A model generated the notes under the pieces. That model saw nothing but the letters and a program-made list of their open reading frames with translations. It did not search any database and was not told the DNA's origin. Of a stretch of DNA of 64,000 nucleotides, positions 477 through 15,967 are shown piece by piece; position 1 is the stretch's first letter, and each line of letters opens with the position of its first letter. The DNA is taken from positions 1-64,000 of the forward strand of contig NZ_JACNMS010000008.1 of the NCBI RefSeq assembly GCF_020595125.1, read 5' to 3'. The stretch is from Jeotgalibacillus aurantiacus (lineage in GTDB: Bacteria > Bacillota > Bacilli > Bacillales > Jeotgalibacillaceae). The position numbers and the translations under genes were made by a program.

Positions 477-1181
477 GTGTTGAGAAAGAAATGGGAGACG
501 GCGGGTCTGGTCCTGCTGGCTGTATTGATTCTGGCGCTTCTTCCTTCTTCCCCGCGGGTGATGGAGGTGACTGGGGTGTGGCCTTCACTGGGAATCATTT
601 ACAAGGGGGATGAGGGTGTGGTGCTGACTTTTAACGTGACGATTGGGGATGATTCTGTGCTGTGGCTGGCTGAGGAGCTGCGGCGGACGGGCATTGAGAA
701 GGCGACTTTTTTTCTGGATCCGTCCTGGGTGGACCGGAAGAAAAAGATTGCGGATCAGTTAAAGGCGTATGGATATGATATTGGGATTTATGATTTACAT
801 CCGGCCCGGTATGAGGGATTGAGTGAAAAAGAGATGGATGAGCATATTGCGGAGCTTGTGGCGTTTTTTCATGAGCATGAACTTTCGCCTGATTATTATA
901 GAACGGCTGATGGGTTGCTTAATGAAGAGGTTGTCAGGCGTTTGCGGGAGCAGGATTTGCTGGTGGTGAGTCATGAAGTGACGGGTGAGGCGTTACTCGA
1001 GGAGGAGGATCAGAGCTATAACGGGGCTGTTGTGTCGCTTGATGTGGTGAATGATGAAAAAGAGCTCAAGCAGCGATGGACTGAGTGGAGATCTGCCCTG
1101 GAGCGGACGGATGATCTTCGCTACGTATCGGTGCTTGAGCTGCTGGCTTCTTCTGATAGTAAGATTAAGCTGTTGGAATAG
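477..1181 (+). CDS. pdaB: PdaB-like divergent polysaccharide deacetylase, sporulation
   Basis: A 234 aa protein with an N-terminal signal anchor (about residues 8-24) and a NodB-type fold read as LTFN...GDD near residue 50, followed by KATFFLDPSW and YGYDIGIYDLHP. B. subtilis PdaB, needed to keep spores intact, has the same layout (IALTFDISWGDE, NATFFLSASW, IGSMGYAYKNY). The family's first catalytic Asp appears as Asn here, so activity is doubtful. A GTG start is chosen because GGAGG lies 6 nt upstream; a TTG three bases later is also possible. The identity rests mainly on synteny: divergent from the rrn operon and next in order after kbaA, apart from the inserted Tad-like block. The last 17 bp overlap the convergent gene at 1165. 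Confidence 0.75.
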   Translation: MLRKKWETAGLVLLAVLILALLPSSPRVMEVTGVWPSLGIIYKGDEGVVLTFNVTIGDDSVLWLAEELRRTGIEKATFFLDPSWVDRKKKIADQLKAYGYDIGIYDLHPARYEGLSEKEMDEHIAELVAFFHEHELSPDYYRTADGLLNEEVVRRLREQDLLVVSHEVTGEALLEEEDQSYNGAVVSLDVVNDEKELKQRWTEWRSALERTDDLRYVSVLELLASSDSKIKLLE

Positions 1182-1941
1182 GCTGCGGCCATCTGAGCGC
1201 GAGACTGTCTGTGGCTTCACCGCTGTATTTCTGACGCAGAAATCGGATCCGGTCTGACACCTGCTTTTCATAATGGTCCTCAGCATTCAGGTGATGATCT
1301 GTGTTCATGCTGGTTGCCTGGTCTTTGATCAGCTGCTGATAAAAGGTTTTTACTTCATGCGGAAGCCGGTTCCAGAGACCGGCTTTTTTCATGTGGCGAA
1401 TCCAGTCTTCGAGTACATTTATTTGCCCAGCGAGCTCTTTACCTGTCCTGAGGTGGATGACGGACAGGTGCGCTGCTTTTTCATACAGCAGGTTGAGCTC
1501 TTCTTCTGTGACTTTTCTCGGGTTATTGGCGAAGATGATAAAGCCCTGGAAATGCTGAACGAATTGCTTTTGCCAGTCATAGAGACTTGCAATCAGCTGT
1601 CTGCCTGCTTCAAGACCCGGGTACTGCGCTTTATCCATAAGCTGAATCGGCAGTGTAAACATTTCAGGTGACTGCTCATACCTCGCGTTGCCTGATTTAT
1701 GCGTATCTCTCAGCAACAGATGGTATTCCGCAAGCATTTCATGTGCTTTTTGCGCTTCTGCCGGCTGTTCCTGATCGGGTGAAAAGACGGCTGCAGCTTT
1801 CGTTTCTTCTTTTCGATTGAGATAGACAGCCTGGTAATACTTCCGGCCGTTAATCAATGTCCAATTCGGATATACCGTGACTTTCTCGAGCACTTTTTTG
1901 TATGATTTCGCTTTGTCTTCAATGATTTGAACGTCTGTCAT
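1165..1941 (-). CDS. Unrecognised protein, LRWP family paralogue A
   Basis: A 258 aa protein with no signal peptide or membrane segment, so probably cytoplasmic. It is paralogous to the genes at 3813 and 4638. All three start with a basic stretch ending in (Y)KK-(V/L)-(L/F)-E, have an NG-x2-Y strand followed by an N-R/K-K/N pair and A-(A/I)-(A/I), an A-x2-AH segment near residue 75, a mostly helical middle with a conserved A-(A/S)-x-(L/M)-x-V, and end near LRWP. The start is set by GAGGTGA 5 nt upstream of ATG and matches the starts of the other two. It follows the vWA lipoprotein gene by 22 bp, in one transcript. No function can be assigned. It is less A+T-rich than its two paralogues. Confidence 0.85.
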   Translation of the reverse strand: MTDVQIIEDKAKSYKKVLEKVTVYPNWTLINGRKYYQAVYLNRKEETKAAAVFSPDQEQPAEAQKAHEMLAEYHLLLRDTHKSGNARYEQSPEMFTLPIQLMDKAQYPGLEAGRQLIASLYDWQKQFVQHFQGFIIFANNPRKVTEEELNLLYEKAAHLSVIHLRTGKELAGQINVLEDWIRHMKKAGLWNRLPHEVKTFYQQLIKDQATSMNTDHHLNAEDHYEKQVSDRIRFLRQKYSGEATDSLALRWPQPIPTA

Positions 1942-1963
1942 CGTGATCACCTCATTTAAAAGC

Positions 1964-3331
1964 TTATTCTCCATCAGGACGGGCATCTTCAATCATCTGA
2001 TCCATTCCTTCAATTCCTTCTTCCTTGATGCGTCTGAGTTCATCAAGGAAATCACTTCTTACCTGACGGGATAATTCATAGTTGGCCGTTGCATAATCCT
2101 TCAGTGGCTGCAGCTGTTCACTCGTGATTTTCCCTTCGTCTACAAGCGTGTCCATCACACGGTATTCTGTGTTGACCTGGTCAAGACTTCTGCGTGTCCA
2201 TGAGTTGGAGAAGTGATTAATATCAATTGTCGCGTTGGCACTCGTCCAGTTACGGTCAGTCCGTGCGCCGACACTCCATTGCTTCCATTCAGCAAGAATG
2301 TCTTCTGTGCGCTCGAATTCCTCGCGCAGTCCTTCTGCATTATTGACGTTGGCGTAAGCACCACCAGCCTGCTTCGCTACTTCCTTCAGCTGCTGCTGAG
2401 CTTCTGAGTCGGCGTTGAAGCCGATGACGTTGATGATTGGTGAAATATTGCTTCCGGCAAAGCTTTTCGCGGCTGCAACCGGATCTCCGTCACACGTCTC
2501 GATTCCGTCACTGACGAGGTAAATCAGGTTCGTATTTTGCTCGCCGTCCAATCCTTCAAAGCTTTGGGCAGCTGATTCGAGGGCACCAGCAACCGGGGTC
2601 CAGCCAGCCGGTTCAAACTGATCGAGTGCGGCTTGGAATGCGGCTTCATCATAAGGTCCCCGCTCATACACTTCTTCAATGGCAGCGCAGGACATTTCTT
2701 TGTCAGCGTCATCGCCTGTTCCTTCATGTCCATACACGCGCAGGGATACGTTTGCTTCCTCTGGTGCGGAAGAAAGGAACGTCTGGATTTCGCGTTTTGC
2801 CTGCTCCATACGGGTTTCGCCACCTGCATCGGCAGCCATGGACCCGCTCGCATCTAAAATGATTTCAATATTGTAGTTTTCTTTAAACTCATAGCGCCGG
2901 TCGGCTTCAGGCATTCCTTCCATATCAAACCGGGCAGCATCCAATACGCCCGATGGATCCGGCAGATCTCTTTTCGTAATGGAGTGGATGTACTGGTAGT
3001 AAAGCTCGATCTCTTCTTCAGAGGCATCCTCCGGTAAGGCAGGCGCATCGCCGAACACATCCATAAAGGACACGTCCTCCTGCTTCTCCTGTTCAATCGC
3101 TAATAATCCATCGCCCTGCTGGACAAAGTCCTGAGGCTCCTTCGGAATCGGGGCCAGATTCAATTCCTCAAGCGCTGCTAACGGACCTGCTGCCTCCTCC
3201 GTCTCCTCCGCCTGTACTTCATCCGTTGAAGCCTGCTCCGCTTCGTTCTCCGGGACATCCTGTGCTTCTTCACTCTGGCAGGCTGCAAGCGCCAGACTCA
3301 ACGTTAATGCTGAAAGCCACATCTTCTTCAT
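1964..3331 (-). CDS. von Willebrand factor A lipoprotein (copy 2)
   Basis: A 455 aa predicted lipoprotein. A short signal peptide ends in the lipobox LAAC, placing the lipidated Cys at residue 18. An acidic Glu-rich linker follows (about 20-50), then the motif PALPEDASEEE near 98 and a vWA domain from about 155 with an intact MIDAS motif DASGS at 160-164. Two conserved Cys in MSCAA and ETCDGD could form a disulphide. It is closely similar along its length to the gene at 8996. vWA domains bind protein partners through a divalent metal, and canonical TadG proteins carry one. AAAGGAG lies 8 nt upstream of the chosen ATG; longer readings lack a ribosome site and would spoil the signal peptide. 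It is first gene of the short second unit of the Tad-like block. Confidence 0.88.
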   Translation of the reverse strand: MKKMWLSALTLSLALAACQSEEAQDVPENEAEQASTDEVQAEETEEAAGPLAALEELNLAPIPKEPQDFVQQGDGLLAIEQEKQEDVSFMDVFGDAPALPEDASEEEIELYYQYIHSITKRDLPDPSGVLDAARFDMEGMPEADRRYEFKENYNIEIILDASGSMAADAGGETRMEQAKREIQTFLSSAPEEANVSLRVYGHEGTGDDADKEMSCAAIEEVYERGPYDEAAFQAALDQFEPAGWTPVAGALESAAQSFEGLDGEQNTNLIYLVSDGIETCDGDPVAAAKSFAGSNISPIINVIGFNADSEAQQQLKEVAKQAGGAYANVNNAEGLREEFERTEDILAEWKQWSVGARTDRNWTSANATIDINHFSNSWTRRSLDQVNTEYRVMDTLVDEGKITSEQLQPLKDYATANYELSRQVRSDFLDELRRIKEEGIEGMDQMIEDARPDGE

Positions 3332-3433
3332 GCTGACTGCTCCTTTCATCGCTAAACGTGGATTCGTTATATAACTAATGAATAATACGTCCATCCTCAC
3401 CATAAGTTTCACTTCTCTTGGTAAACTACCCCT

Positions 3434-3464
3434 TTTTTAATGGAAAATTTGAACACTGTCAAAT
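3434..3464 (-). promoter_or_regulatory. Promoter of the short Tad unit, copy 2 of a duplicated element
   Basis: The minus strand reads TTGACA, a 17 bp spacer, then TAAAAA, about 95 bp before the lipoprotein start. The -35 and spacer form TTTGA-N6-TCAAA, an inverted repeat that could be an operator. The whole segment, spacer included, recurs with one or two differences at 15937-15967 before cpaB. Identity across the spacer suggests a shared regulator rather than two chance sigma-A promoters. The rest of 3332-3812 holds a candidate small gene and a terminator. Confidence 0.6.
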
Positions 3465-3546
3465 GATGGATGACTTATATGTTTCAAGACCGGGCGTAAC
3501 GTCATGATGGTCAGACAACTGCAGGGTCATAAGGAGGGTGGCGTTT

Positions 3547-3687
3547 GTGTTTATAAGTAGTAGGATGGTCTTGATTCGATGTATTTTCGTAAAGGAATGG
3601 ATGTCGAAGGTTACAATTTTTACAGTTTGTGGGTCGTTGGGACCTTTTTGGGGATTGGTGGAGAAATTGAGAAAAGGTCGTGGCTAA
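3547..3687 (+). CDS. Candidate small protein, 46 aa
   Basis: An open frame on the plus strand starts at GTG, with AAGGAGG about 9 nt upstream, and encodes 46 residues: a hydrophobic first half with two Cys, a W-rich middle and a basic tail ending KLRKGRG. It lies alone on the plus strand within the Tad-like block, between its two transcription units. No clear promoter was seen, and nothing similar is recognised. The strong ribosome site is the only positive evidence, so it may be spurious. Confidence 0.25.
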   Translation: MFISSRMVLIRCIFVKEWMSKVTIFTVCGSLGPFWGLVEKLRKGRG

Positions 3688-3781
3688 TCTTTGTTAAAGG
3701 ACGTGTATAAAGGATTTGGAGTGCTTTTGATAGAAGATGAAAGCTGATATTTTTAACCGAATGTGGATTTTTAAATAAACT

Positions 3782-3812
3782 GAAAACCGGAAGAATCATC
3801 TCCCGGTTTTGC
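3782..3812 (-). terminator. Terminator of the long Tad operon
   Basis: Immediately after the stop of the gene at 3813 the minus strand folds as AAAACCGG ... CCGGTTTT with further pairing inside the loop. It separates the long cpaB-to-paralogue-B operon from the second, separately promoted unit. The A/U-rich arms also allow function in the opposite direction. Confidence 0.65.
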
Positions 3813-4589
3813 TTACATCTTTGGCCAACGTAGTGTTTTGATATGACTGTCTAATATTTTTCTTTCTTCCCTGTTCAGCCGCTCTATAGTAAAAGCAACA
3901 CGTTCTTCATACGTATCTCCTTCAACAGCCGGAAGCTCTGCTCTTTTTGCTTTAGACTTGTGATGACTGCTGATCATTTGTTCAATGAATCCTTTAGAGT
4001 GTAAAGGAACACTCCCCCAAATTCCTTTCTCCTTTAACCTTTTTCTCCATTCAATGAAAAACGGGACATCATCTGTCATAATCTTTGTTAATTGATCATG
4101 AAGGACGCTCAATTGTGCTGACTTTTCTGTGATATAGGCCAGGTCCTCTTCTGTGACGACTGTAACGGCGTCGAAGTTCGTTTGGGCTTCCTGGAATCTG
4201 TCGTTGAACTGTTGATGTAAATTTCTCAACTCGGCAAATTTTTCGACTCCTTTTTGAATTTCGGGATCCTCGACATTGCTTAGGGCAATCAATAATGGAT
4301 TAAGAATATTCGGTGACATGGCAGCACGGCCTTTTCCACCTAAGTAAATGCCAGATGCTGTCGCTCCATATAAAGTTAAAGGGTCATGCGCTTTTCTTGC
4401 TTCATCCTCGTTATTGTTTGAAGGTGCGATAATAGCCGTTGCCGTAGTCTTGCCATTTCTATTTTTAAAAATAACCTGACGATAACGATTACCATTCACT
4501 TCATAGATATATGGATTGACCGCAATTTTTTCAAACAACTTTTTGTATTTCTTTGCATGTTGATAGATTAACTCTTTTTCTTTTTCCAT
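3813..4589 (-). CDS. Unrecognised protein, LRWP family paralogue B
   Basis: A 258 aa soluble protein, last gene of the long Tad operon. It begins with a charged helix, then KYKKLFEKIAVNP, an NGNRYRQVIFKNRNGK strand pair, a DEARKAH segment and a largely helical remainder with LHQQFNDRFQEAQ and SAQLSVLHDQLTKI, ending TLRWPKM. The three members share length, N-terminal block and C-terminal LRWP. The ATG preceded by GCGGTGATCTAT is preferred over a GTG three codons earlier because it lines up with the start of paralogue C. The gene follows paralogue C by 48 bp. No enzyme or binding motif is visible. Confidence 0.85.
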   Translation of the reverse strand: MEKEKELIYQHAKKYKKLFEKIAVNPYIYEVNGNRYRQVIFKNRNGKTTATAIIAPSNNNEDEARKAHDPLTLYGATASGIYLGGKGRAAMSPNILNPLLIALSNVEDPEIQKGVEKFAELRNLHQQFNDRFQEAQTNFDAVTVVTEEDLAYITEKSAQLSVLHDQLTKIMTDDVPFFIEWRKRLKEKGIWGSVPLHSKGFIEQMISSHHKSKAKRAELPAVEGDTYEERVAFTIERLNREERKILDSHIKTLRWPKM

Positions 4590-4637
4590 ATAGATCACCG
4601 CCTCAAAAGGTGCTTAGCAAAGTACCATTTCAAATGT

Positions 4638-5417
4638 TTATTTAACTTTAGGCCATCGTAGCTGTTCTCTATACACAAGTTCCATTTTTTTATTGTGTGC
4701 TAGCGTATCCTGCAGTCTGTTTTTAAATTGTTCTTCTACAGTTTCACCAGCTATTAGAGTATGTGATTTCAGTGTTTGTTTCACTCTAAATGTCTCATCT
4801 ATTAATCCATTGTAATAAAGGTGCTGATCCTTCGATAGCTTTTCCCACAAGCCTTCTTCCTTCATCGCTGTTCTCCAGTTAGCGAAAATTTTCTGTTCGT
4901 CTAATAATATTTTCAATATATTAAAAGAATAGACATCCATCCGGCTTGCTTTTTCACAAAGATAGTGAAAATCATCTAGTTTTATTATTTTCGGATCCTT
5001 ATAAAACGTTGAAGCCTCCTGAAACTCTCTTACAAAAAGACGTTCAAATTCATAGAACTTCTCAATTTCTTCTCTTCCCTTAACAATGTCAGGATGTGTT
5101 TCTTTCTTTAATAATGATATTGGTTCAGTTTTCAGAGAATCATCTACCAGATACGTTCCACCAATACCATAAATTGTTGCAATTTCTGCATTATAAACTG
5201 ATAAATGCTTATGTGCTTCGAAAGCATCCTCTTCATTAGCTGAACCATTAACCGGTATGATGGCACTTCCTGTTTTTTTGCCCTTTTTATTTGTATAAAT
5301 CGCTTCGAAATATAAAACGCCATTCTTTTCGTATGCATTTGGAGAAACTTCAATTAATTCAAATAGTTTTTTATATTTTGGTGCTTTTTTTACTGCTTGC
5401 TGATGTTCTTGAATCAT
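4638..5417 (-). CDS. Unrecognised protein, LRWP family paralogue C
   Basis: A 259 aa soluble protein of the same family as its neighbour, with KYKKLFELIEVSPNAYEKNG at the N-terminus, NKKGKKTGSAIIPVNG, an EAHKHL segment and the ending LRWPKVK. The chosen ATG has AAGGTGA 5 nt upstream and gives a protein the size of its paralogues. The coding sequence looks clearly A+T-richer than the cpaB-cpaF end of the same operon, which may mean separate acquisition or weak codon selection. Its role is unknown, but its neighbours suggest a partner of the pilus or of the secreted Trp-repeat protein. Confidence 0.85.
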   Translation of the reverse strand: MIQEHQQAVKKAPKYKKLFELIEVSPNAYEKNGVLYFEAIYTNKKGKKTGSAIIPVNGSANEEDAFEAHKHLSVYNAEIATIYGIGGTYLVDDSLKTEPISLLKKETHPDIVKGREEIEKFYEFERLFVREFQEASTFYKDPKIIKLDDFHYLCEKASRMDVYSFNILKILLDEQKIFANWRTAMKEEGLWEKLSKDQHLYYNGLIDETFRVKQTLKSHTLIAGETVEEQFKNRLQDTLAHNKKMELVYREQLRWPKVK

Positions 5418-5457
5418 ATACGTCACCTTCACTTTCTGCTTGAATAGAAGAAAAGAT

Positions 5458-5481
5458 ACAATCTAAATAAATTCAGATTGT
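5458..5481 (-). other. Intra-operon hairpin after the Trp-repeat gene
   Basis: The 80 bp gap between the Trp-repeat gene and paralogue C contains ACAATCT-N10-AGATTGT, a perfect 7 bp stem in an A/T-rich context. A short, interrupted U-rich stretch follows on the minus strand, so it might stabilise the upstream transcript 3' end or reduce readthrough. It is not a strong terminator. Confidence 0.4.
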
Positions 5482-5497
5482 ACCTCCTATTTTATCA

Positions 5498-6895
5498 TTA
5501 GTTTCCGAACAAGCCTTTAACTGAGTTCCATCCGCTCGAAAGCTTATCTTTTGCACCTTCGTAAGTATTTTTTGCAAGGTCACCTGTTGCTTTAAGTGGG
5601 TCGCTCTTAAAATCACTTCCGAATTTCTTAATACTACCCCAATTATCTGCAGCAAGCTTAACGAGTCTCGAGCCACCCCATAAGATAGCACCTCCAGCTA
5701 TAAGAAATGGAGCTGCAGCCTGGCCACCGGGGAAAAATCCTGCTGTTACACCTGCGCTCATAATGGTTTGTCCCAATGAAGCAGTTGCATCTGCTGTTGC
5801 AGACACTTTCTCAGTCGTTGCTGCATCTGAATTGAACACTTCAACCGCATTCGCTGTTTTAAAGCCGGTATCAACAGCACCAAAGAATGTTCCTACCGAA
5901 GCAGTAGCAATGTTAAATTTCGTTAAAACACCCATGCCCGCTGAAGCAGTCGCTGCATTGGCACCTGTTGAAACAGCACCTCCTGCTGCTTGCATCGCTT
6001 GTGTTACACCCGCACCTGCTTGAGCCGTTTGATTCGCTTGATTAATAGTTTGTATTTTTTGTATTGCTTGGTAACCATCTTTTATGATCGTACCTGAAGT
6101 AATTGTATCATCAACAAATTTAAACGTTTCGTTTTCTCCAAGGCCTAACTTTAAGCCACCCCAAATAACAGCACTATGAAAACTTCTTACATCGTTAAAT
6201 CCAAAATTTTCGCCTTTCTGGAGAGCTGATGTAGCAAGTCCTACCTGTCCAAAAACAACATCTTTGGTCAGGTATTCTGTTACTTCAACCCATTTTGGTT
6301 TTTTTATTTCGGCTGGATCTGAGCTTCCTGCTGTTACTGAATTACCATTGAGATCATATCCACCAGGCTGCAATAGATTGATCATTCCGGGATACAAAGA
6401 TGTTCCAGGTGCGTAAGGGTTCGGCATGACCACATTTCCAGGGGCAACAACTGTACCGTTGGGCAATGTCCCCCCAACATTGACTCCCCCGGCTCCCGGG
6501 TTCATCGGACTAAGGTATGGAGGAACAGGAACTGTACCCGCTCCTCCTTCAAAACCTGGAGCTACCGGACCTGCGTTTGGTCCCCATGGAGCATATGACC
6601 AAGGTACACCTTGCCATTCGGTTCCATTAAATCCGCTCCCCTGACCACCCATTTCACCATTCCAGTCTGTTCCTTGCCATTCCTGACCATTCCATGTGTT
6701 ACCTTGCCACTCCTGACCACTCCAGGAGTTTCCTTCCCATGAGTTCCCTTCCCACGGGCTGCCAGACCAGTCATTTCCCGTCCAAGAATTTCCTGACCAT
6801 GGACTCACTCCGTAGGCAGAGGAATATAGAAAGGACTGAGAAACAATAAATAATATGACAATAATAGCTGGTAGTTTTTTTAGCAGCTTATTCAT
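5498..6895 (-). CDS. Secreted Trp-x-Gly pentapeptide-repeat protein
   Basis: A 465 aa exported protein. Residues 5-27 form a hydrophobic signal peptide or anchor. From residue 31 a strictly periodic repeat x-x-W-x-G runs ten times, with Trp at 33, 38, 43 and every fifth residue to 78. A second block has Trp at 94, 99 and 104. A Pro/Gly-rich linker (about 105-195) follows, then an Ala/Gly-rich region, a hydrophobic Gly-rich stretch around 380-409 and an amphipathic tail of about 55 residues. Flanking Tad genes suggest a surface or pilus-associated structural protein, or the exported cargo. No known domain is recognised. Such a short regular aromatic repeat could form a beta-type or ligand-binding surface, but that is inference. 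Confidence 0.88.
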   Translation of the reverse strand: MNKLLKKLPAIIVILFIVSQSFLYSSAYGVSPWSGNSWTGNDWSGSPWEGNSWEGNSWSGQEWQGNTWNGQEWQGTDWNGEMGGQGSGFNGTEWQGVPWSYAPWGPNAGPVAPGFEGGAGTVPVPPYLSPMNPGAGGVNVGGTLPNGTVVAPGNVVMPNPYAPGTSLYPGMINLLQPGGYDLNGNSVTAGSSDPAEIKKPKWVEVTEYLTKDVVFGQVGLATSALQKGENFGFNDVRSFHSAVIWGGLKLGLGENETFKFVDDTITSGTIIKDGYQAIQKIQTINQANQTAQAGAGVTQAMQAAGGAVSTGANAATASAGMGVLTKFNIATASVGTFFGAVDTGFKTANAVEVFNSDAATTEKVSATADATASLGQTIMSAGVTAGFFPGGQAAAPFLIAGGAILWGGSRLVKLAADNWGSIKKFGSDFKSDPLKATGDLAKNTYEGAKDKLSSGWNSVKGLFGN

Positions 6896-6913
6896 AGCCT
6901 ATCTCCCCTTTGT

Positions 6914-7630
6914 TTAAATCGTTACTGAGCTTTCTTCAATTGCATAAAGTCCAAGATCTTTTCTCCATTTCGCAACTAGAAAAGCCAGTGTTAAATAAAA
7001 CAGAGGAAAGAAGATCGTATTAATAAACAAATGACTCAACACTACCGCCAAATAAGAGGTTGTAATATTTAAAATGAACACCTGAACCATAAATGACAAA
7101 ACAAACTCTATTAAGCTGAATGCGATAATAAGTAATAGCAATTTCCAATGATGCCTTTTAAAAAGCTGAATGCTTTCTCTAACTGACTTCCATACGGATT
7201 TGTTTTCGGTAATCGCGATTAATGGTGCGCTGATAAACATTGCCATAATGATCAGACCCGGGAGTACAAATACTGCTAGACCCAGCGTAATTAAAGCACC
7301 TATTGATACAGCAAAAACAAAAAAGTGAAACACTCTAATTACGGACTGTAAGATGGCCAGTCGAAAGGGCTTTTCTTCTCCCGATTCCTCATAATGCCAA
7401 TAGTAGATAAATGGGATTTGAGCAACAAAGAATAGGATGATCATAAAATAGGCATTATAAATATCTGCAGCGCTAAAGGCTGTTCCAAAGTTCGGTACAA
7501 CCGCATACATGTAATTAGCGAAGAAAAAATAGAGTGTCAGCAAAGGAATTTGGACAAGTAGAATAATCAGCAAGATCCGTTCATACTTCTTACTGAAAAA
7601 AGAAAATGCTGAACGTATTGGATGATCCAT
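6914..7630 (-). CDS. Polytopic membrane protein, unknown
   Basis: A 238 aa integral membrane protein with about six hydrophobic segments, the first near residues 19-40 and the last near 200-225, and short basic loops. AAAGGAG precedes the ATG. There is no GxGD motif of a prepilin peptidase and no transporter signature. The segment GLAVFVLPGLIIMAMFISAP resembles a motif common in DUF975/YciC-like membrane proteins, only a loose similarity. It lies 18 bp before the Trp-repeat gene and 15 bp after the small membrane gene, so it is cotranscribed with the Tad-like genes. Confidence 0.8.
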   Translation of the reverse strand: MDHPIRSAFSFFSKKYERILLIILLVQIPLLTLYFFFANYMYAVVPNFGTAFSAADIYNAYFMIILFFVAQIPFIYYWHYEESGEEKPFRLAILQSVIRVFHFFVFAVSIGALITLGLAVFVLPGLIIMAMFISAPLIAITENKSVWKSVRESIQLFKRHHWKLLLLIIAFSLIEFVLSFMVQVFILNITTSYLAVVLSHLFINTIFFPLFYLTLAFLVAKWRKDLGLYAIEESSVTI

Positions 7631-7645
7631 TTAGATCGTCTCCTT

Positions 7646-7837: not shown

Positions 7838-7850
7838 GTCTGATCTCTCC

Positions 7851-8917: not shown

Positions 8918-8944
8918 TCGCTTTCCTCCCTTCTTTCCAGCCGC

Positions 8945-8997
8945 TTTCCCACTTGCTCCTGTTAAAACCAAGTGGGAAAACGGGGGCTGCCCGTTTT
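8945..8997 (-). terminator. Overlapping hairpins between vWA lipoprotein 1 and tadE
   Basis: Two hairpins follow the stop of the vWA gene on the minus strand. The first, AAAACGGG...CCCGTTTT (8977-8997), resembles a weak terminator overlapping the stop codon. The second, an 11 bp perfect stem CAAGTGGGAAA/TTTCCCACTTG (8945-8979), shares three bases with the first, so they compete or stack. They probably lower or adjust expression of tadE and later genes relative to pilin and vWA mRNA. Confidence 0.45.
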
Positions 8998-10402
8998 ACT
9001 CTGCCTCATCCGGGTAGAGCTCTTCAATTCTTTGTTCAAGTTCTTCGATGCCCTGTTCTCTCAAGTCTTCGAGTTCAGTCTTAAGCGTTTCCTGACCTTG
9101 TTCTGCTAACGCTTTTACCTCATCTGCTCTTTGCTCCAGCTCTTTTTGTTGCTCAAGTGTCATCTTTCCTTCCTCACGAAGAATTCGATTTGCGTCATAG
9201 AGGGAAAGCCACTGTTCACGAGCTGATGATCCCCAAGTATTTGAGAAACGAGTAATCGCAAACGAAGCGTCGTTGGACTGATTCCTCACGTCAGTACTTG
9301 CATCAAGCTTCCACCTTTGCCAATTTTGAAGAATCTTTTCCGTCTGACTGAACTCTTCTCTCAATTGATCCGCATTATTGACGTTTGTGAACAAACCTCC
9401 TGCAGAATCAGCGACCTGACGAAGTTGCTCCTGCGTTTCAGAATCTGCGTTAAAACCAATCACGTTGATGATCGGGGACACATTACTATCAGCAAATGCC
9501 TCGGCAGCTGCTACCGGATCTCCGTCACACGTTTCAATTCCATCACTGACAAGATAGACGAGATTTGTATTTTCCTCACCGCTCAAATCTGAAAAGCTTT
9601 CAGCAGATGACTCCAGAGCACCAGCCACTGGTGTCCAGCCTGCAGGCTCAAACTGATTTAAAGCATCCTGAAAAGCTCCTTCGTCATACGTGCCTCGCTC
9701 ATACACTTCCTCTACTGCAGCACATGACATGGCTTTATCTGCCTCGTCACCTGTTCCTTTATGTCCATAAACACGAAGTGAAACATTCGCTTCTTCAGGA
9801 ACGGAAGCTAAGAATCGGTTGATTTCTTCTTTTGCCTGTTCCATCCTTGTCTGGTCTCCAACATAAGCACCCATGGAGCCACTGGCATCCAGAATAATCT
9901 CAACATTGTAGTTTTCTTTAAACTGGAATTTAGGGTCTGCCTCAGGAGTTCCTGAAAGTGCGAATCTCATTTGGTCACTGATATCCTTTGGATCCGGAAA
10001 CTCATAGGCTGTCAGTTGATAGATAAGCGAAAAATACGCATCCAGTTCCTCTTCTGATGCGTCTTCAGGCAAGGCAGGAATATCTCCAAACGCTTCTAGA
10101 AATTGATTCTTCAGGTCCTCATCAGATGTATTTAGCGTGACATTGCCCAAAGGCCCGGATTGTTGATTAATTAACTCTTCTAATGACTGAGGTGGCTCGG
10201 ATAAGTTTAAAGACTTGATACTTCCAATAACATCCTGCTCCACTGATTCCTCATTCTCAGCCACTTCTTGCTCAGGATCATTTTCTGATACCTGTTGCTC
10301 TTGCTCGCTATTTTGAGCGCTTTCTAAAGGCTCTTCCTGATCCTGACAGGCTGCAAGCACTAAACACAATGCAGCCGCAGGAATCCAATAATGCTTTTTC
10401 AT
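8996..10402 (-). CDS. von Willebrand factor A lipoprotein (copy 1)
   Basis: A 468 aa predicted lipoprotein with signal peptide and lipobox LAAC (Cys19), a long Glu/Gln-rich linker to about residue 60, PALPEDASEEE near 109 and a vWA domain with MIDAS motif DASGS at 172-176. Downstream are VYGHKGTGDEADK, two conserved Cys (MSCAA, ETCDGD) and a C-terminal charged coiled-coil-like segment rich in Glu (about 415-468). Much of it aligns closely with the copy at 1964, so the pair arose by duplication. Position between the Flp pilin and TadE suggests a surface-anchored partner of the pilus taking the role of the vWA part of TadG. GGGAGG precedes the ATG. Confidence 0.9.
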   Translation of the reverse strand: MKKHYWIPAAALCLVLAACQDQEEPLESAQNSEQEQQVSENDPEQEVAENEESVEQDVIGSIKSLNLSEPPQSLEELINQQSGPLGNVTLNTSDEDLKNQFLEAFGDIPALPEDASEEELDAYFSLIYQLTAYEFPDPKDISDQMRFALSGTPEADPKFQFKENYNVEIILDASGSMGAYVGDQTRMEQAKEEINRFLASVPEEANVSLRVYGHKGTGDEADKAMSCAAVEEVYERGTYDEGAFQDALNQFEPAGWTPVAGALESSAESFSDLSGEENTNLVYLVSDGIETCDGDPVAAAEAFADSNVSPIINVIGFNADSETQEQLRQVADSAGGLFTNVNNADQLREEFSQTEKILQNWQRWKLDASTDVRNQSNDASFAITRFSNTWGSSAREQWLSLYDANRILREEGKMTLEQQKELEQRADEVKALAEQGQETLKTELEDLREQGIEELEQRIEELYPDEAE

Positions 10403-10429
10403 AGAAGCCCTCCCAAAAAGAAATCTGCT

Positions 10430-10642
10430 TTATCCGATTGAATCAATGAACTCTTCGAACTTAGATTTGATCGCATCCCCAATTCCCGAGTCTCCTGCAA
10501 ATGCCTGAGAAATAACACCAACAACAATTACGACAACTGCCGCAATCCCCAACCACTCAAGTGTTTGAGAACCTCTTTCGTTATTTACCTTTGACGCTGC
10601 AGCATTCATTGCTTTAAAATACCATTCATTTAGTTTTTTCAT
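10430..10642 (-). CDS. flp: Flp-type pilin precursor
   Basis: A 70 aa protein: a basic leader, the processing-like site NNERG/SQTLEWLG with Gly at -1 and Glu at +5, one strongly hydrophobic helix (IAAVVVIVVGVISQAF) and a short acidic tail. This is the size and layout of a Flp major pilin. The second ATG is chosen, since AGGAGG is 8 nt before it and only 2 nt before the first. It lies 19 bp after tadC and 27 bp before the vWA gene. No prepilin peptidase gene is present nearby, so maturation would need one encoded elsewhere, such as a ComC-type enzyme. Confidence 0.88.
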   Translation of the reverse strand: MKKLNEWYFKAMNAAASKVNNERGSQTLEWLGIAAVVVIVVGVISQAFAGDSGIGDAIKSKFEEFIDSIG

Positions 10643-10661
10643 TTTCATTTCCTCCTGTTAG

Positions 10662-11597
10662 TTAAAATAGATTCATAATGCTGTTATCACCATAGATCAT
10701 GTTCAATATCATCAGACCGGCAACCATTAGAATTGATACTGGTGCGACGATAAAGGTCGTGACGAGTGTTACTTTAGGGGAAGCCTTGGCAGCAAGCTCT
10801 TTTACTTGCTCCTGTCTGAGCTCACGCATATCCTCTGCCTGAACTTTAAAGGTTTGTGCTACTGGGACACCCAGCTTCATTCCCTGGAGAAGTGATTTAA
10901 TTAATTGCTGAAACTGCTGGTTATTATTTCTCTCCAATAAATTACGATAGGCTTGTTCCCTTTGAACTCCCAAGTCGATTTCCTGTATAAATCTGGTGAA
11001 TTCTTCTCTGAGCGGACCATCAAAAAAGCGAATCACCTCCCTCAAAGCCTGGTCCAAGCTAACTCCCGCCTGCAAACTTGTACTGATGGTATCCAGAAAA
11101 TCCGGTAGATCCTGTCTTAGCGCTTCCTGCCTTTGCTTAACCTGTTGTTTAATCAGAATAATCGGTAAAAAGTATCCAAGGAGTGGAATCAGTACAATGC
11201 CGAATTCTGAAAAAGGAAACCCTAATATAAAGAGAAGCATCCCAAGGAAAAATCCTGCTGTCAGAAACATCATTTTAATCCCCTGGAAACGGGCAACCGT
11301 CAATTCATATCGATTACCTGACTTTTTCAACCAATCCGCAACATCTAAATTCTCACTAAAGAAGTTTATCCTCTGTCCCAAATCAGCAAATTCGTCTGCG
11401 AACTTAGTAACTTTGTCAATCAAGCCTGCCTGCTGTTTTCTCTTTTTTTCCTTTTTTTCAAAAGCATCGACCAGTGTCACATCAGAAACGTGCACAAGTA
11501 GCTCACGCTTTTCCTTAATGTAAGCTGACCAATTTCGCAGCCCCAAAACGACTAAAAACCAAAATAAAATGACGCATAATATAATCAGTGCATCCAT
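10662..11597 (-). CDS. tadC: TadC-like inner-membrane platform protein
   Basis: A 311 aa protein of the type II secretion F (T2SSF) superfamily. It has one N-terminal membrane segment, a charged cytoplasmic region, two central helices (ILGFPFSEFGIVLIPLLGYFLP), the T2SSF block with DLPDFLDTISTSLQAGVSLDQAL, and a C-terminal membrane helix. TadB and TadC form the paired platform that couples the ATPase to pilin assembly. GTAGGTGA is positioned 5 nt before the preferred ATG, so a GTG three codons earlier is rejected. It follows tadB by 9 bp. Confidence 0.88.
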   Translation of the reverse strand: MDALIILCVILFWFLVVLGLRNWSAYIKEKRELLVHVSDVTLVDAFEKKEKKRKQQAGLIDKVTKFADEFADLGQRINFFSENLDVADWLKKSGNRYELTVARFQGIKMMFLTAGFFLGMLLFILGFPFSEFGIVLIPLLGYFLPIILIKQQVKQRQEALRQDLPDFLDTISTSLQAGVSLDQALREVIRFFDGPLREEFTRFIQEIDLGVQREQAYRNLLERNNNQQFQQLIKSLLQGMKLGVPVAQTFKVQAEDMRELRQEQVKELAAKASPKVTLVTTFIVAPVSILMVAGLMILNMIYGDNSIMNLF

Positions 11598-11606
11598 ATT
11601 AATCAC

Positions 11607-12536
11607 CTACACTTTTATATTCGTAATCTTCCGGATCAGGAAGAACGATAAAATGATACCCAGAACGAAAAGAATCATAATGACGATTCCAGGTGTTGTT
11701 GTCAGAGGATCCGTGAAACCATCCATGATATTATTCATCATCAGTAAGATAAACACTGGCATCGCAGGAACAATAATTGAAATGTACCTTTGTTCGGATG
11801 TCATGGTGCGAATGGTTTGATGTAACACCTTGCGATCCTCAAGTGTATGGGCCATCGTTTCAAGTGTAGAGGCTAAATTACCACCCGTTTTCTTTTGGAT
11901 GAGTAGAGTAGCCGCAAACAGTTGAAAGTCACGGGAAGCATTTCGCTCCTGAACTTTTCTTAATACCTGTTCAAGTGGAACACCGAGCTTCAACTCGTAA
12001 GACATTCTCTTAAACTCTTCTCTTGCTGGACTATTTATTTCGTGAGCCACCAGATCAATTCCCTGCGTCACTGTCATTCCACTTTTTGATGCATTGGAAA
12101 GCAGCCTGCAAATTTCACTAAGCTGTTCATTGAAACGTTCCTCGTAACGATTCTTTCTCATATAGAACAAGAGGAAATGTCCCGCACCAAGAATACCTGC
12201 TGTGATGAGTAAACTGACAAGTGCACTCATACTGAAAATCATATTAAAAACCACAAACAACAATAGAAAACCAAGTACATGAATTCCAATATATTCAGAA
12301 GGCAGCAGCGTTACATTCGCCATCTGCAGCTTACGATGAAGCTTCTCAGATGATGGTGACTGGTCATATCTGTCACCGAGGACGCTGATGGCGCTTTTGC
12401 GTTTTTCTTCCGGGTACCATGTCCGCATTTTCTTTTTCCAGTCCTGCTTGTGTCTTCTGTAATCAAGGAAGAAGTACACCATCAGGATGAGTGACAGGGC
12501 GGCTGAGGCGAACAGGACGGCAATGATTATGTCCAT
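11607..12536 (-). CDS. tadB: TadB-like inner-membrane platform protein
   Basis: A 309 aa T2SSF protein with an N-terminal membrane helix, a cytoplasmic stretch, two central helices (about 90-135), the family block EICRLLSNASKSGMTVTQGIDLVA, the KTGGNLASTLE motif and two C-terminal helices. AAGGAGG lies before the ATG chosen; a longer frame with a basic prefix lacks a ribosome site. Its first 10 bp overlap the end of the ATPase gene, indicating coupled translation. It pairs with the following tadC gene. Confidence 0.9.
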   Translation of the reverse strand: MDIIIAVLFASAALSLILMVYFFLDYRRHKQDWKKKMRTWYPEEKRKSAISVLGDRYDQSPSSEKLHRKLQMANVTLLPSEYIGIHVLGFLLLFVVFNMIFSMSALVSLLITAGILGAGHFLLFYMRKNRYEERFNEQLSEICRLLSNASKSGMTVTQGIDLVAHEINSPAREEFKRMSYELKLGVPLEQVLRKVQERNASRDFQLFAATLLIQKKTGGNLASTLETMAHTLEDRKVLHQTIRTMTSEQRYISIIVPAMPVFILLMMNNIMDGFTDPLTTTPGIVIMILFVLGIILSFFLIRKITNIKV

Positions 12537-13879
12537 ACCGGCTCGCCTCCTTTTTGAAAGAGACGCTGATCGAATTCGATGCCAAACAGCTTCAGTCGCT
12601 CCACGCATTTCGGAACGATGCCGGTCGGCTCAAAGTGACCGAGCACTTCTCCGTCTTTTCCGGTGCCTGTCCGTTTGAACACGAAAATGTCCTGCAGCTT
12701 CACCTGATTGTGTTCATCTACATACACTTCAGAAATATTGACGATCTTACGTTTACCGTCACCAAGCCGCTCTGCCTGCACGATCATGTCGAGTGCGCCG
12801 ACGATGTATTCGCGAATGATGTGAGTAGGCAGGTCCATACCGGCCATGACAACCATCCCTTCAACACGGTTAATCGCATCTGACGGTGAGTTGGCGTGAA
12901 CGGTGGTGAGTGAGCCTTCGTGACCTGTATTCATCGCCTGAAGCATATCGAAGGCCTCAGGACCACGAACCTCTCCGACAATGATCCGGTCCGGTCTCAT
13001 CCGCAAGGCGTTTTTCACAAGCTGGCGGATCGAGACTTCCCCGGTTCCTTCCACGTTCGGCGGACGGGCTTCAAGTCCGACCACGCTTGACCGGTTCAGC
13101 CTTAATTCTGCGGAATCCTCAATCGTGATAACCCGCTCTTTTGGCGGAACGGCTTTTGCTGCTGCGTTTAAGAGAGTCGTTTTCCCGCTCCCTGTTCCTC
13201 CTGAGATGAGCACGTTCATCTTTGCTTCGACAATGGCCTGGATAAATTCAGCCATCGGTTCACTGAGCGAGCCAAATCCGAGCAGGTCCTCCATTTCGAT
13301 CGGGTCCTGTCTGAACTTACGGATGGAAATGAGTGTCCCATTCAGACTGACCGGCGGGATGACCGCATTCACACGGCTTCCGTCCGGCAGGCGTGCATCG
13401 ACCATCGGCGAGCTTTCATCAATTCTTCTGCCGAGCGGGGCAATGACGCGGTCGACGATGTGACGCACGTGCGCATCATCCTTAAAAGTGATTGTGGACT
13501 CCTGAAGCTGTCCATTGCGCTCAATGAATACTTCCTTTGGTCCGTTTACGAGAATCTCCGTGATTGACGGGTCCTTCAGCAGCTGCTCAAGCGGTCCGAA
13601 GCCGACACTTTCATCGATCAGACGGGACATGAGCACTTCACGGTCCCCTCTTGGAATGACGACCTTTTCTTCCAGCATGAATTGATTGACGAGCCGCTCA
13701 ATGGACAGGCGTCGTTCATGCTCATCCGCTGCGGTTAACTGCTCGAGGTTCGTCTCTGCAAGTAGCCTCGTTTTATAATGCTCAAGTAATTCCTCAAGAT
13801 AAGGCGTCATGACGGCCTGCGCGGCTTCCTTGCGCGGCTGTTCTGCCTGTTCACGTTTGCTCCGTTGGAATAGTGACAT
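12527..13879 (-). CDS. cpaF: TadA/CpaF secretion ATPase
   Basis: A 450 aa hexameric secretion ATPase of the PilT/VirB11 superfamily. Residues 75-215 form the N-terminal domain with FGPLEQLLKDPSITEILVNG. Walker A is GGTGSGKT at 227-234, the Asp box IEDSAEL at 253-259, then Walker B RIIVGEVRG near 300 and HEGSLTTVHANS with the catalytic His box. All key residues are intact, so it should power pilin assembly at the cytoplasmic face of the membrane. It follows the TadZ-like gene by 13 bp. Confidence 0.95.
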   Translation of the reverse strand: MSLFQRSKREQAEQPRKEAAQAVMTPYLEELLEHYKTRLLAETNLEQLTAADEHERRLSIERLVNQFMLEEKVVIPRGDREVLMSRLIDESVGFGPLEQLLKDPSITEILVNGPKEVFIERNGQLQESTITFKDDAHVRHIVDRVIAPLGRRIDESSPMVDARLPDGSRVNAVIPPVSLNGTLISIRKFRQDPIEMEDLLGFGSLSEPMAEFIQAIVEAKMNVLISGGTGSGKTTLLNAAAKAVPPKERVITIEDSAELRLNRSSVVGLEARPPNVEGTGEVSIRQLVKNALRMRPDRIIVGEVRGPEAFDMLQAMNTGHEGSLTTVHANSPSDAINRVEGMVVMAGMDLPTHIIREYIVGALDMIVQAERLGDGKRKIVNISEVYVDEHNQVKLQDIFVFKRTGTGKDGEVLGHFEPTGIVPKCVERLKLFGIEFDQRLFQKGGEPVWT

Positions 13880-13892
13880 CGTGTTTCCCTCC

Positions 13893-15023
13893 TTACTTCA
13901 GCATCGATCTCACCCATTTGCGCAGATCCTTCGCTGCCGGGATCATTTTCTTCTCCTTCGGCTCTTTCCGGATCGGCTGTCCTTTATTAATCGCAGCCTG
14001 CACCCCTTTAATATCGCGTCTGATTTCTGCAGCGTGCGGGTACGTGACAAAGCGTTCCAAATCTTTTTTCGACAGCTCATTTTCTTTGCCGATTTCATTT
14101 AACACGAGCTCTAAGCGGTCCTCTGTTGGAATCCCGAGCTTCTGAAACAGGTTTTCCACGTGCTTCAGTACCCGGATCGACGGGGTATCAAGGGCGATCG
14201 TGTAAAACACTTTATCCGCCTCTACCAGTGCCCCGTAGGTCCGCTCGTCAATATTGGACGGCAGATCAATGATGATAAAATCGTAGCTGCGTCTGCATGC
14301 CCGCAACACTTTCGTGACAAAATCCTCTGTCAGCCGCTCGGCCATTTCAGCGTCACGCGGACTGATCAGCAGGTCGAGCTTTGAAAACGGCTCTTTTTCC
14401 GATACGTTTTTCAAATGATGCTCACTGACTTCATCAATAACCGGCTCAAGATCCATGATCGTGCGGTTCGCTTCAATCCCGAGAAACGTCTCTCCGCCTC
14501 CGTACTGGAGGTTCAGGTCGATATAGATGACCTGGGCCGTTGACTCAAGCTTCAACGTCTGGGCGAAGGCTGTGCTCAAGAACGTTTTCCCGCTGCCGCC
14601 TTTCCCGCTGTAGAAAGCAAATACCTTACCGTTACCGCGTTTGAACAGCTGCTCTTTCGGCTGTTCCGCTGAAGCGCGGGATACAATCGTCTCCACGCGG
14701 TCACCGAGTCCACCAAGATCCTCCGGTAATACGAGATAATCCGTAACGCCTCTTCTCACCAGATCACGGAACAGCTGGAAATCATGCGTCTCGTGAATGA
14801 AGATAATCGGTGCGTGGAGCTGTTCAGACTGAAGCAGTGCAACCCGCTCAATATCGGCATCCCCATGTAACAGCAGGACGGCCTTTGGCTGTTTATTTTT
14901 CAGCTCTGATCGTAAATGTGACGGGTCAAGCACTTCGGTTTTTAAATGTTCCGGTAAACGTGTCCGGATGGTCGACACGAGTGTGCCTTCTGTTCCTATT
15001 ATGAGTACATCCAATTCTTCCAT
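13893..15023 (-). CDS. cpaE: TadZ/CpaE-like MinD-family ATPase
   Basis: A 376 aa protein of two parts. Residues 1-115 look like a degenerate receiver domain (DVLIIGTEGTLV, VTDYLVLPEDL). Residues 133-360 form a ParA/MinD ATPase with deviant Walker A KGGSGKT at 141-147, IYIDLNLQYGGG, and IIIDLPSNIDERTYGAL as the Walker B region. TadZ/CpaE proteins place the Tad machine in the cell, often at a pole. GAGGAGG precedes the ATG. The tail is Lys-rich (KEPKEKKMIPAAKDLRKW) and could bind membrane or nucleic acid. Confidence 0.92.
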   Translation of the reverse strand: MEELDVLIIGTEGTLVSTIRTRLPEHLKTEVLDPSHLRSELKNKQPKAVLLLHGDADIERVALLQSEQLHAPIIFIHETHDFQLFRDLVRRGVTDYLVLPEDLGGLGDRVETIVSRASAEQPKEQLFKRGNGKVFAFYSGKGGSGKTFLSTAFAQTLKLESTAQVIYIDLNLQYGGGETFLGIEANRTIMDLEPVIDEVSEHHLKNVSEKEPFSKLDLLISPRDAEMAERLTEDFVTKVLRACRRSYDFIIIDLPSNIDERTYGALVEADKVFYTIALDTPSIRVLKHVENLFQKLGIPTEDRLELVLNEIGKENELSKKDLERFVTYPHAAEIRRDIKGVQAAINKGQPIRKEPKEKKMIPAAKDLRKWVRSMLK

Positions 15024-15046
15024 GGCTTTTCCTCCTCACCCGCGAC

Positions 15047-15811
15047 TTATTCTCCGGAATCCTGCTTTTGCTCTTCTTTCTTTTCTTCAGCAGGCGGTTT
15101 TTCTTCCGCTTTCTCCTCTGCCGGCTGTTCTGCTTCTGCCGGCTCCTCTTCAGGCGGTGCTTCCTCAGCTTCCTGCGATGTACCTGCAACCTCCTGATTA
15201 GCGAGTCCTACGTTGGCTTTAATGATGCGGACACTGTCTGCGTAGTTTTGCATATGGATGAGTTCAGGTGTCTGATCGAGTGAGATTTCTACCTGTACCC
15301 CTGAAAAATTTCCTTCCTCGCTGGCTACACGTGCGACTTTGACATCCTTCATAAAGATCTCTGTCTGATTTCCTTCATCTGTCCGATTCGACACGATTAT
15401 GTCGACACGGTCGAGCGGCTCAAGCGGTTCATCAAAAAATACGCGCTCTGATGACATTAACGTCACAAGCCGGTTATTTTCTTCTGTAACAGCTGACGCT
15501 TCCTTCAGCATGTTTTTAGAAATCACATCTCCTTCTGATAAAGGAACAACCGATACCTTATTCATGAGCTCATCAGGATTTTGAATGTGCTCTGATGTGA
15601 CAAACTTCTGCGGAATGCTTTCCGCTGCCACGCTATCCGGTGTAATGACGTCCCGTGCCGCAATATCTGCACCCGCCACATAAACGGTGACCATCGTGCC
15701 GAGATCCGAGTTCAGCTCTCTCACCTTCTGTAAGGTAAAATAGCCGGCAGCTGCAGCGAATAGTGCTGCGATAATAAAGAAGATTAAGGCCCTTCTTTTT
15801 GACTCAATCAT
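15047..15811 (-). CDS. cpaB: CpaB/RcpC-like SAF-domain protein
   Basis: A 254 aa protein with one N-terminal membrane anchor (about 7-24) and an SAF domain (VTVYVAGADIAARDVITPDSV to about 100), then an RcpC-type domain (RVFFDEPLEPLDRVDIIV). It ends in a low-complexity tail of about 50 residues of Glu, Pro, Ala and Lys. In Gram-negatives CpaB helps the outer-membrane secretin; no secretin is present here, and the charged tail could instead span or bind the cell wall. GAGGAAG lies before the chosen ATG; a GTG five codons upstream is less likely. First gene of the long operon, about 120 nt after its putative promoter. Confidence 0.9.
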   Translation of the reverse strand: MIESKRRALIFFIIAALFAAAAGYFTLQKVRELNSDLGTMVTVYVAGADIAARDVITPDSVAAESIPQKFVTSEHIQNPDELMNKVSVVPLSEGDVISKNMLKEASAVTEENNRLVTLMSSERVFFDEPLEPLDRVDIIVSNRTDEGNQTEIFMKDVKVARVASEEGNFSGVQVEISLDQTPELIHMQNYADSVRIIKANVGLANQEVAGTSQEAEEAPPEEEPAEAEQPAEEKAEEKPPAEEKKEEQKQDSGE

Positions 15812-15936
15812 CGCTATCTTCCTCACTTTCCCAAATAAGTGAAATTTAGTACAATGTATTCACATTAGCGCCAACTAATATGACATTAGTGTCGGAAATT
15901 CATTTTTCCCGAAATGCGCTGAATTAGCTATCACTG

Positions 15937-15967
15937 TTTTTAATGGAAATTTTGAACACTGTCAAAT
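15937..15967 (-). promoter_or_regulatory. Promoter of the long Tad operon, copy 1 of a duplicated element
   Basis: The minus strand has TTGACA, a 17 bp spacer and TAAAAA, with the TTTGA-N6-TCAAA inverted repeat across the -35. It is nearly identical to 3434-3464, and both lie roughly 95-125 bp before a first gene of a Tad unit. Between it and cpaB an imperfect CTAAT/ATTAG repeat occurs at about 15870-15890. Confidence 0.6.

Follow-up and report, generated by a model that had tools for sequence, protein, structure and literature searches.

A Tad pilus island with putative toxin–immunity cassettes between kbaA and pdaB of Jeotgalibacillus aurantiacus

Introduction

A Tad machine is tied to contact-dependent killing in the Kil system of Myxococcus xanthus, which also has exchangeable accessory modules (PMC12075869). 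Monoderm Tad systems have already been described, and secretins are absent in monoderms (PMC6668835). The LXG glycine-zipper toxins EsxX and TelE, for their part, are membrane-damaging and have soluble proteins that neutralise them (PMC12744356, PMC10434224); EsxX is also neutralised by polytopic membrane proteins, which occur as orphans (PMC12744356). Here, we describe an island of Jeotgalibacillus aurantiacus in which a Tad pilus machine and its partner genes form one minus-strand block (1165-15826). The partners are two vWA lipoproteins, a secreted protein with W-x-G repeats, a YciC-like and a small membrane protein, and three paralogues ending in LRWP (LRWP proteins hereafter). The window, meaning the whole stretch of DNA analysed, spans 64,000 nucleotides (positions 1 to 64,000 of contig NZ_JACNMS010000008.1). 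We consider it probable, at roughly 0.65, that the island couples a monoderm Tad machine to a swappable, membrane-depolarising polymorphic toxin–immunity cassette, with LRWP as the soluble immunity protein.

The likeness to Kil would lie in the tie between a Tad machine and contact killing and in the exchangeable modules. Kil, however, is a diderm system with minor-pilin Tip complexes and a partner resembling a type III secretion system, and no toxin is named in the passages at hand (PMC12075869), whereas the present island is monoderm and encodes Sec-type exported effectors with adjacent immunity-like genes. EsxX with ExiAB/ExiCD, and TelE with TipE, resemble the local cassettes in their hydrophobic glycine-zipper C-terminus, in combining soluble with polytopic membrane immunity, and in orphan immunity genes; they differ in having LXG N-termini and type VII secretion, where the effectors described here have a Sec-type signal with W or PG repeats, and the genome has no YukC match. 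Further, the EsxX orphans are membrane partners, whereas the orphans found here are soluble LRWP proteins without a DUF5085 match (PMC12744356). Strings of non-identical immunity paralogues are known from the esaG, tsaI and tipC tandem genes, although these belong to other families and are linked to the type VII secretion system (T7SS; PMC9484751). Gram-positive Tad genes also lie beside a toxin-exporting system in the T7SSg and T7SSh clusters, a link that the authors leave open (PMC11217815); in contrast, no T7SS gene was present among the island genes scanned, and the effectors here have a Sec-type signal. Finally, the type IV pilus tip of Streptococcus sanguinis likewise joins a vWA domain to a type IV filament system, but on a minor pilin rather than, as here, on a separate lipoprotein (PMC12075869). 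Among the papers listed in searches of the open-licence literature, outside which most subscription journals lie, none dealt with Tad pili coupled to toxin–immunity cassettes in Bacillales. Nor did these listings include a Tad machine that brings Sec-type exported effectors of its own, each class with its matching immunity-like gene.

Results

Effectors and their downstream partners

The putative cassette of the window comprises the W-repeat protein and the LRWP paralogues:

5498-6895, minus strand: class A effector (W-repeat protein), with Sec-type N-terminus, W-x-G repeats, linker and hydrophobic C-terminal domain
5498-6343, minus strand: effector C-terminal domain, a predicted membrane-active toxin domain (A2 profile; LXG-toxin similarity of the class profile)
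4638-5432, minus strand: LRWP-C, predicted cognate immunity protein, directly after the effector (AlphaFold pLDDT 89.7)
3813-4598, minus strand: LRWP-B, predicted second immunity protein, the sole gene swapped relative to genome G009
1165-1992, minus strand: LRWP-A, third LRWP paralogue (A1 profile 237 bits, of which it is itself a member)

We compared this arrangement across a single draw of 249 genomes from the order, taking genes as longest open frames and families from iterated hidden Markov models, so that starts and borderline members are approximate. TadA was found at E ≤1e-70 in 111 genomes; the 49 with a match of E ~1e-163 or better (58-100% identity) are referred to as the near group. 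All 49 encode at least one effector (class A in 24, B in 11, A and B together in 1, C in 13). Three kinds of protein take the slot of the W-repeat protein, all with a hydrophobic Sec-type N-terminus and a glycine-rich hydrophobic C-terminal domain: class A has W-x-G, PG or other repeats and a C-terminal domain like that of the window protein, class B consists mostly of PG-repeat proteins with a clear glycine-zipper end, and class C carries another glycine-rich hydrophobic domain. The N-terminus is hydrophobic in 54/54 class A, 15/16 class B and 13/13 class C effectors.

The gene that follows depends on the class. In a set of one locus per genome, holding 60 effector genes in 51 loci (without G009, a near-copy of the window, and without effectors below 150 amino acids (aa), but with close relatives included), the next gene matches the C-terminal class in 58/60 cases. 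Class A is followed by LRWP in 33/35 (the others by a YciC gene and by a contig end), class B by B1, a protein with 4-6 predicted transmembrane (TM) segments, in 12/12, and a small protein (60-110 aa, at least two TM segments) comes after class C in 13/13. A mixed set, drawn from the named loci L036-L060 and other genomes and including repeated strains (e.g., L038, L129), gave LRWP after 47 of 55 class A effectors (YciC follows in 3 of the others and a small membrane protein in 1, while 4 lie at an end); of the 17 class B effectors, 13 precede B1, 2 precede B2 and 2 some other gene. Where N- and C-terminal parts are recombined, the partner tracks the C-terminus: in L146 and L163, PG repeats of the local type (by eye in L163) precede a class A end and then LRWP, and the second copy in L039 joins local-type W repeats to a class B end, followed by B2. 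One class B and one class A cassette stand together in L146. Two features by which polymorphic toxins are recognised are thereby present, namely an exchangeable C-terminus behind a trafficking N-terminus (three classes, recombined in L039, L146 and L163, partly by eye) and a class-matched gene directly downstream (58/60, with exceptions at L039, L042 and L043).

LRWP and other candidate immunity genes

A third such feature, orphan and tandem immunity genes, is found as well. None of 83 LRWP proteins of at least 240 aa has a signal or TM-like segment (0/83), and the AlphaFold model (pLDDT 89.7, pTM 0.84) shows an N-terminal helix, three strands and then long helices. The three LRWP proteins of the window gave no DUF5085 match at E ≤1, in searches whose HMMER filters drop most matches above 0.1. 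In a decayed Tad island (L161, genome G230, 8204-10615), a truncated YciC gene, a small membrane protein and a 78-aa effector stub accompany a full-length LRWP. The orphan LRWP of G006, a congener, has a synonymous divergence (dS) of 1.01 and a dN/dS of 0.14 relative to G003's LRWP, and the branch compared runs partly through the Tad-bearing lineage; flanking genes, KbaA included, have dS values of 0.7-1.6 for the pair G006 and G011, not G006 and G003.

A single-gene exchange emerges from the comparison of the window with G009. The two are 96.3% identical over 17,276 aligned bp, and every 250-bp bin reaches at least 92% except those in LRWP-B, which fall to 61-66% (three full bins) and 82% (edge bin), with 53% protein identity. 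The LRWP-C protein is 100% identical and the effector bins are 96-100% identical. As for class C, 32 of 36 small TM proteins downstream form one cluster that spans all 13 loci, and L182 (G126, 1765-9966) holds 14 tandem mosaic copies, some shortened, of the small TM partner.

LRWP therefore appears to behave like an immunity gene rather than a surface protein. The preliminary description had presented the partners as dedicated surface proteins; this suits the vWA lipoproteins and the effector, but not the immunity-like LRWP, with its lack of signal or TM-like segments.

An alternative is that the W-repeat protein is a pilus-associated adhesin with its hydrophobic C-terminus in the producer's own membrane, and that LRWP is a cytosolic chaperone keeping it competent for export. 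The Sec-type N-terminus, the repeats and the vWA lipoproteins suit an adhesive surface complex, LRWP is soluble and adjoins the effector, and the effector class is co-inherited with the machine. However, the partners of classes B (12/12) and C (13/13) are membrane proteins and hence unlikely chaperones, and neither a dN/dS of 0.14 in an orphan LRWP, nor a tandem array, nor a single-gene swap would be expected of a chaperone. For class A taken by itself, the chaperone reading is the strongest competitor; classes B and C, the array, the orphans and the swap are hard to account for in this way, and we consider the reading unlikely as an account of the island.

In L154, L155, L159, L160 and L165 (family f26), an orphan LRWP adjoins a gene of 425-450 aa with a similar start (KWF or AWF; 5/5 by eye).

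Likeness to LXG toxins

The C-terminal domain profiles match the C-terminal half of one LXG cassette that was left out when they were built, at E 1.1e-10 for class B and 8.4e-6 for class A. The search space consisted of the open reading frames (ORFs) of fetched loci, with 300 shuffles and reversed decoys. Better scores came only from left-out class fragments; the next ORFs of neither class stood at 0.22 (B) and 0.013 (A), and the best shuffles at 0.57 (B) and 0.18 (A). The cassette (L162, G044, 7317-11534) contains a YwqH-like gene, DUF5344, LXG, the toxin half and two similar TM paralogues, with the LXG domain and the toxin half in adjacent open frames. Class-partner pairing, orphans, the tandem array, the single-gene swap and this LXG likeness are recognisable as marks of polymorphic toxin–immunity systems.

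Tad pili usually serve in adhesion and biofilm formation. A Tad pilus that serves adhesion only, and whose accessory proteins evolve fast but play no part in antagonism, would accord with what is usual for these pili (PMC13170226); but the pairing rule, the array, the orphans and the likeness to an LXG toxin all speak against it, and we hold it to be very improbable.

We also considered whether the window effector is itself an LXG toxin of a T7SS, and set this aside. Its N-terminus is hydrophobic and of Sec type, a Pfam scan of the protein gave no match, to LXG or to any other family, and YukC (PF10140) had no match in the J. aurantiacus genome in a search with a positive Bacillus subtilis control. 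The genome therefore probably has no type VII system.

Distribution across the order

The class A effector profile, which contains one class B protein, matches 27 of the 249 genomes, 25 of them in the near group if G208, with a tadA truncated at a contig end, is included; the two matches outside are the LXG cassette (G044) and the decayed island (G230) described above. LRWP, searched with profiles from the window and the named loci, occurs in 37/249 genomes, 26 inside the near group and 11 outside, with G230 and its decayed island among the latter; ten of the 11 were inspected, and G048 is a weak match (E 2.8e-6). Searches for class B and C effectors covered the near group only. The preliminary description had raised the question of whether the partners always travel with tadA; this holds largely for the W-repeat effector (25/27) but not for LRWP, given the 11 of 37 genomes outside the near TadA group. 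Nor does it hold for the vWA lipoproteins, which at E ≤1e-30 occur in 99/249 genomes; with 49 genomes in the near group, at least 50 carriers must lie outside it. At the level of loci, the vWA family is present in 56 of 60 TadA loci (a first set, composed like the mixed effector set) and in 9/13 class C loci, and the YciC-like protein in 52 of the same 60 and labelled in 0/13 class C loci. Among 101 vWA proteins, the DxSxS motif is present in 100 and a lipobox within the first 50 residues in 94.

On the TadA tree, effector class changes 4 times, against a mean of 21.6 after shuffling. Effector class tracks the tree, which suggests a working link between effector and machine rather than free shuffling. 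This bears on the possibility that a toxin–immunity cassette merely adjoins the Tad operon, its product being a secreted bacteriocin-like protein that acts without the pilus. The effector's own Sec-type signal implies that export needs no Tad machine, and LRWP genes outlast Tad loss. Yet an effector is present in 49/49 near-group genomes, its class follows the TadA tree, and this draw holds no intact class A effector outside the near group (classes B and C aside, given the scope of their searches). We therefore regard mere adjacency as somewhat unlikely, and favour a cassette coupled to the Tad machine.

Genomic site within the genus and beyond

The block is flanked by kbaA and pdaB, followed by the 5' end of the 16S gene at 97-1. 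Each of the 12 genomes available for the genus carries kbaA, and 6 carry the tadA. The kbaA–pdaB interval, which the preliminary description singled out for comparison, holds the island (on the pdaB side of kbaA) in the J. aurantiacus genome itself (G000), G009 and G005, but the island lies between salA and gerD in G003 and G004, and left of gerD in G001. Within the genus, the island thus occupies either of two sites. In G002, G007, G008 and G010 (L167-L170), salA, gerD, kbaA and pdaB are directly contiguous; since kbaA directly adjoins pdaB in these 4 of 12 genomes, the block is extra at that site, as had been proposed for this conserved sporulation/rrn neighbourhood. G006 and G011 have neither a TadA nor a class A effector match, yet keep LRWP genes there, and G011 additionally retains a vWA gene and the small membrane protein. 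In G011 (L121, 6799-11805), the surviving LRWP genes flank gerD–kbaA on both sides, that is, at both island sites of the genus.

Between G003 and the window, TadA (94%) and TadC (87%) diverge at the pace of the flanking SalA (93%) and KbaA (86%), whereas the effector (46%) and LRWP (30-52%) diverge far faster than the core Tad genes. We infer that the island was passed down within the genus, with at least one move and several losses. These comparisons support the proposal that a monoderm Tad machine, with partners dedicated to it, is an addition to a sporulation/rrn neighbourhood that is conserved in this genus.

The kbaA–pdaB site does not extend to the other genera checked. The island neighbours are NAPRTase, NAD synthase and a MoxR-type AAA gene at L129, an amino acid permease and then DUF58/transglutaminase at L149, and the ribonucleotide reductase small chain (upstream) at L150; the single neighbour tested at L151 had no match.

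Tad machinery and island layout

In the 5' to 3' direction, the genes run cpaB, tadZ, tadA, tadB, tadC, flp, vWA, tadE, tadG, small membrane protein, YciC-like, W-repeat protein, LRWP-C and LRWP-B, and then, after a gap of 400 bp, vWA and LRWP-A. Besides the cassette genes given above, the features are:

15937-15967, minus strand: 31-bp promoter-like element with a TTGACA-like box, upstream of cpaB (second copy at 3434-3464, minus strand, 1 mismatch)
15047-15826, minus strand: CpaB/RcpC-like protein (cpaB; SAF 35.5 bits, above cut-off; RcpC 19.3 bits, below cut-off)
13893-15023, minus strand: TadZ (AAA_31 58.6 bits)
12527-13879, minus strand: TadA/CpaF ATPase (T2SSE, PF00437, 222 bits)
11607-12608, minus strand: TadB platform protein (T2SSF, PF00482, 70.4 bits)
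10662-11606, minus strand: TadC platform protein (T2SSF, PF00482, 75.5 bits)
10430-10648, minus strand: Flp major pilin (from position and sequence; ERG/SQTLEW processing site, G/x4E, read by eye)
8996-10402, minus strand: vWA lipoprotein 1, with DASGS MIDAS motif (PF00092 42 bits)
8522-8971, minus strand: TadE pseudopilin (PF07811 24.0 bits, cut-off 22.9)
7851-8522, minus strand: short TadG-like pseudopilin without a vWA domain of its own (PF13400 38.8 bits)
7646-7837, minus strand: small membrane protein of ~63 aa (start set at an internal Met)
6914-7630, minus strand: YciC-like membrane protein (NCBIfam YciC E 7.7e-7, below cut-off)
1964-3412, minus strand: vWA lipoprotein 2 (PF00092 37.5 bits)

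All the Tad and partner genes named in the preliminary description are thus present on the minus strand between kbaA and pdaB. The parts by which a Tad/Flp system is recognised are a TadA with two TadB/TadC platform proteins (PF00437, PF00482), a Flp prepilin with its G/x4E site (by eye; the Pfam scan gave no match for this pilin) together with TadE/TadG (PF07811 and PF13400, above cut-off), and RcpC/CpaB (SAF above, RcpC below cut-off) with TadZ (AAA_31). TadA is 99% identical to that of Jeotgalibacillus sp. R-1-5s-1, the nearest named record, and is one of 5 PF00437 matches in the 3.5-Mb J. aurantiacus genome, 4 of which exceed the cut-off. The small membrane protein has tblastn matches in G003, G004, G005, G009 and G011, and none in G001. 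No secretin or TadD was found among the island genes scanned; the rest of the genome was not searched for them.

The Tad locus has no prepilin peptidase of its own; the sole PF01478 match in the genome is at G000:C4:237741, and this peptidase may process the Tad pilins too. It belongs to another type IV filament locus (G000:C4:231-238 kb; L001, L004, L172), where it lies a few kb from two PF00437 (T2SSE-family) genes at C4:231-233 kb, which we take to be PilB/PilT-like.

The block had been described as one operon without direct repeats at its ends. It is a single minus-strand block, but the 400 bp between LRWP-B and the pair of vWA lipoprotein 2 and LRWP-A point to two transcription units, and a 31-bp sequence does occur twice. 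Its second copy lies upstream of vWA lipoprotein 2, so that both units are preceded by the element. Relatives with 4-8 mismatches are found upstream of cpaB in three other species (L117, L118, L119), and a relative also precedes the leftover vWA gene in L121 (G011). The element looks like a possible shared promoter or regulator site rather than an insertion-site duplication. Elsewhere in the window, a ribosomal protein L10 leader (55566-55710) and a T-box leader (63300-63525) lie on the minus strand.

Discussion

Gene content, Sec-type N-termini, class-partner pairing, orphan and tandem genes and the likeness to an LXG toxin half can be read directly from the sequence, and a mechanism can be proposed on this basis. 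The W-repeat protein would be exported by Sec and held at the cell surface by its repeats, which may bind the pilus, the vWA lipoproteins or the cell wall. The Tad pilus would bring cells together or push the protein through the thick wall; the hydrophobic C-terminal domain would then insert into a neighbour's membrane and depolarise it. LRWP-C would neutralise it as the soluble cognate immunity protein, and LRWP-B and LRWP-A would guard against other effector variants. Toxicity, neutralisation, pilus formation, Tad-dependent delivery and the roles of the vWA and YciC-like proteins are predicted steps in this scheme.

Several observations weigh against such a toxin–immunity interpretation, beginning with the predicted status of toxicity, neutralisation and the pilus themselves. 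LRWP matched no known immunity family in profile scans, PDB fold searches with it were inconclusive, and its solubility, next to a protein exported by Sec, could also mark a chaperone. The strict GxxxGxxxG pattern is found in 19/54 class A effectors (16/16 in class B, 8/13 in class C), and the AlphaFold model of the effector C-terminal domain is poor (pLDDT 56.5), with better-scored helices near its end. The LXG cassette first came to light when a profile containing one class B protein was run against the 249 genomes (E 5.4e-8 for one genome), and the match may owe something to a hydrophobic composition common to both sides. Close copies in the draw inflate the clustering of classes on the TadA tree, and the class is mostly co-inherited with TadA, so that swapping rests on few cases. 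Class A effectors without an adjoining LRWP occur at L141 (G020), L039 (first copy), L042 and L043, and class B and C effectors were searched for within the near group.

At somewhat less than even odds, in our estimate, the pattern extends further, with Bacillales holding a widespread Tad-dependent weapon. A monoderm pilus would present or push out Sec-exported, membrane-depolarising polymorphic toxins, whose repeats fit the local Tad machine and whose C-terminus is swapped as a unit with the immunity gene. Such a weapon would be the monoderm equivalent of the Kil pilus of Myxococcus and would give polymorphic toxins a new route of trafficking, and LRWP would be new as a family of soluble immunity proteins. 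If Gram-positive Tad pili do carry toxin cassettes, the question of why T7SSg and T7SSh toxin systems adjoin Tad genes (PMC11217815) would be affected as well, and three effector–partner pairs, including an unnamed soluble immunity-like family, would be testable at once in laboratory strains. Tad-based contact killing would then span from Myxococcus to many Bacillales.

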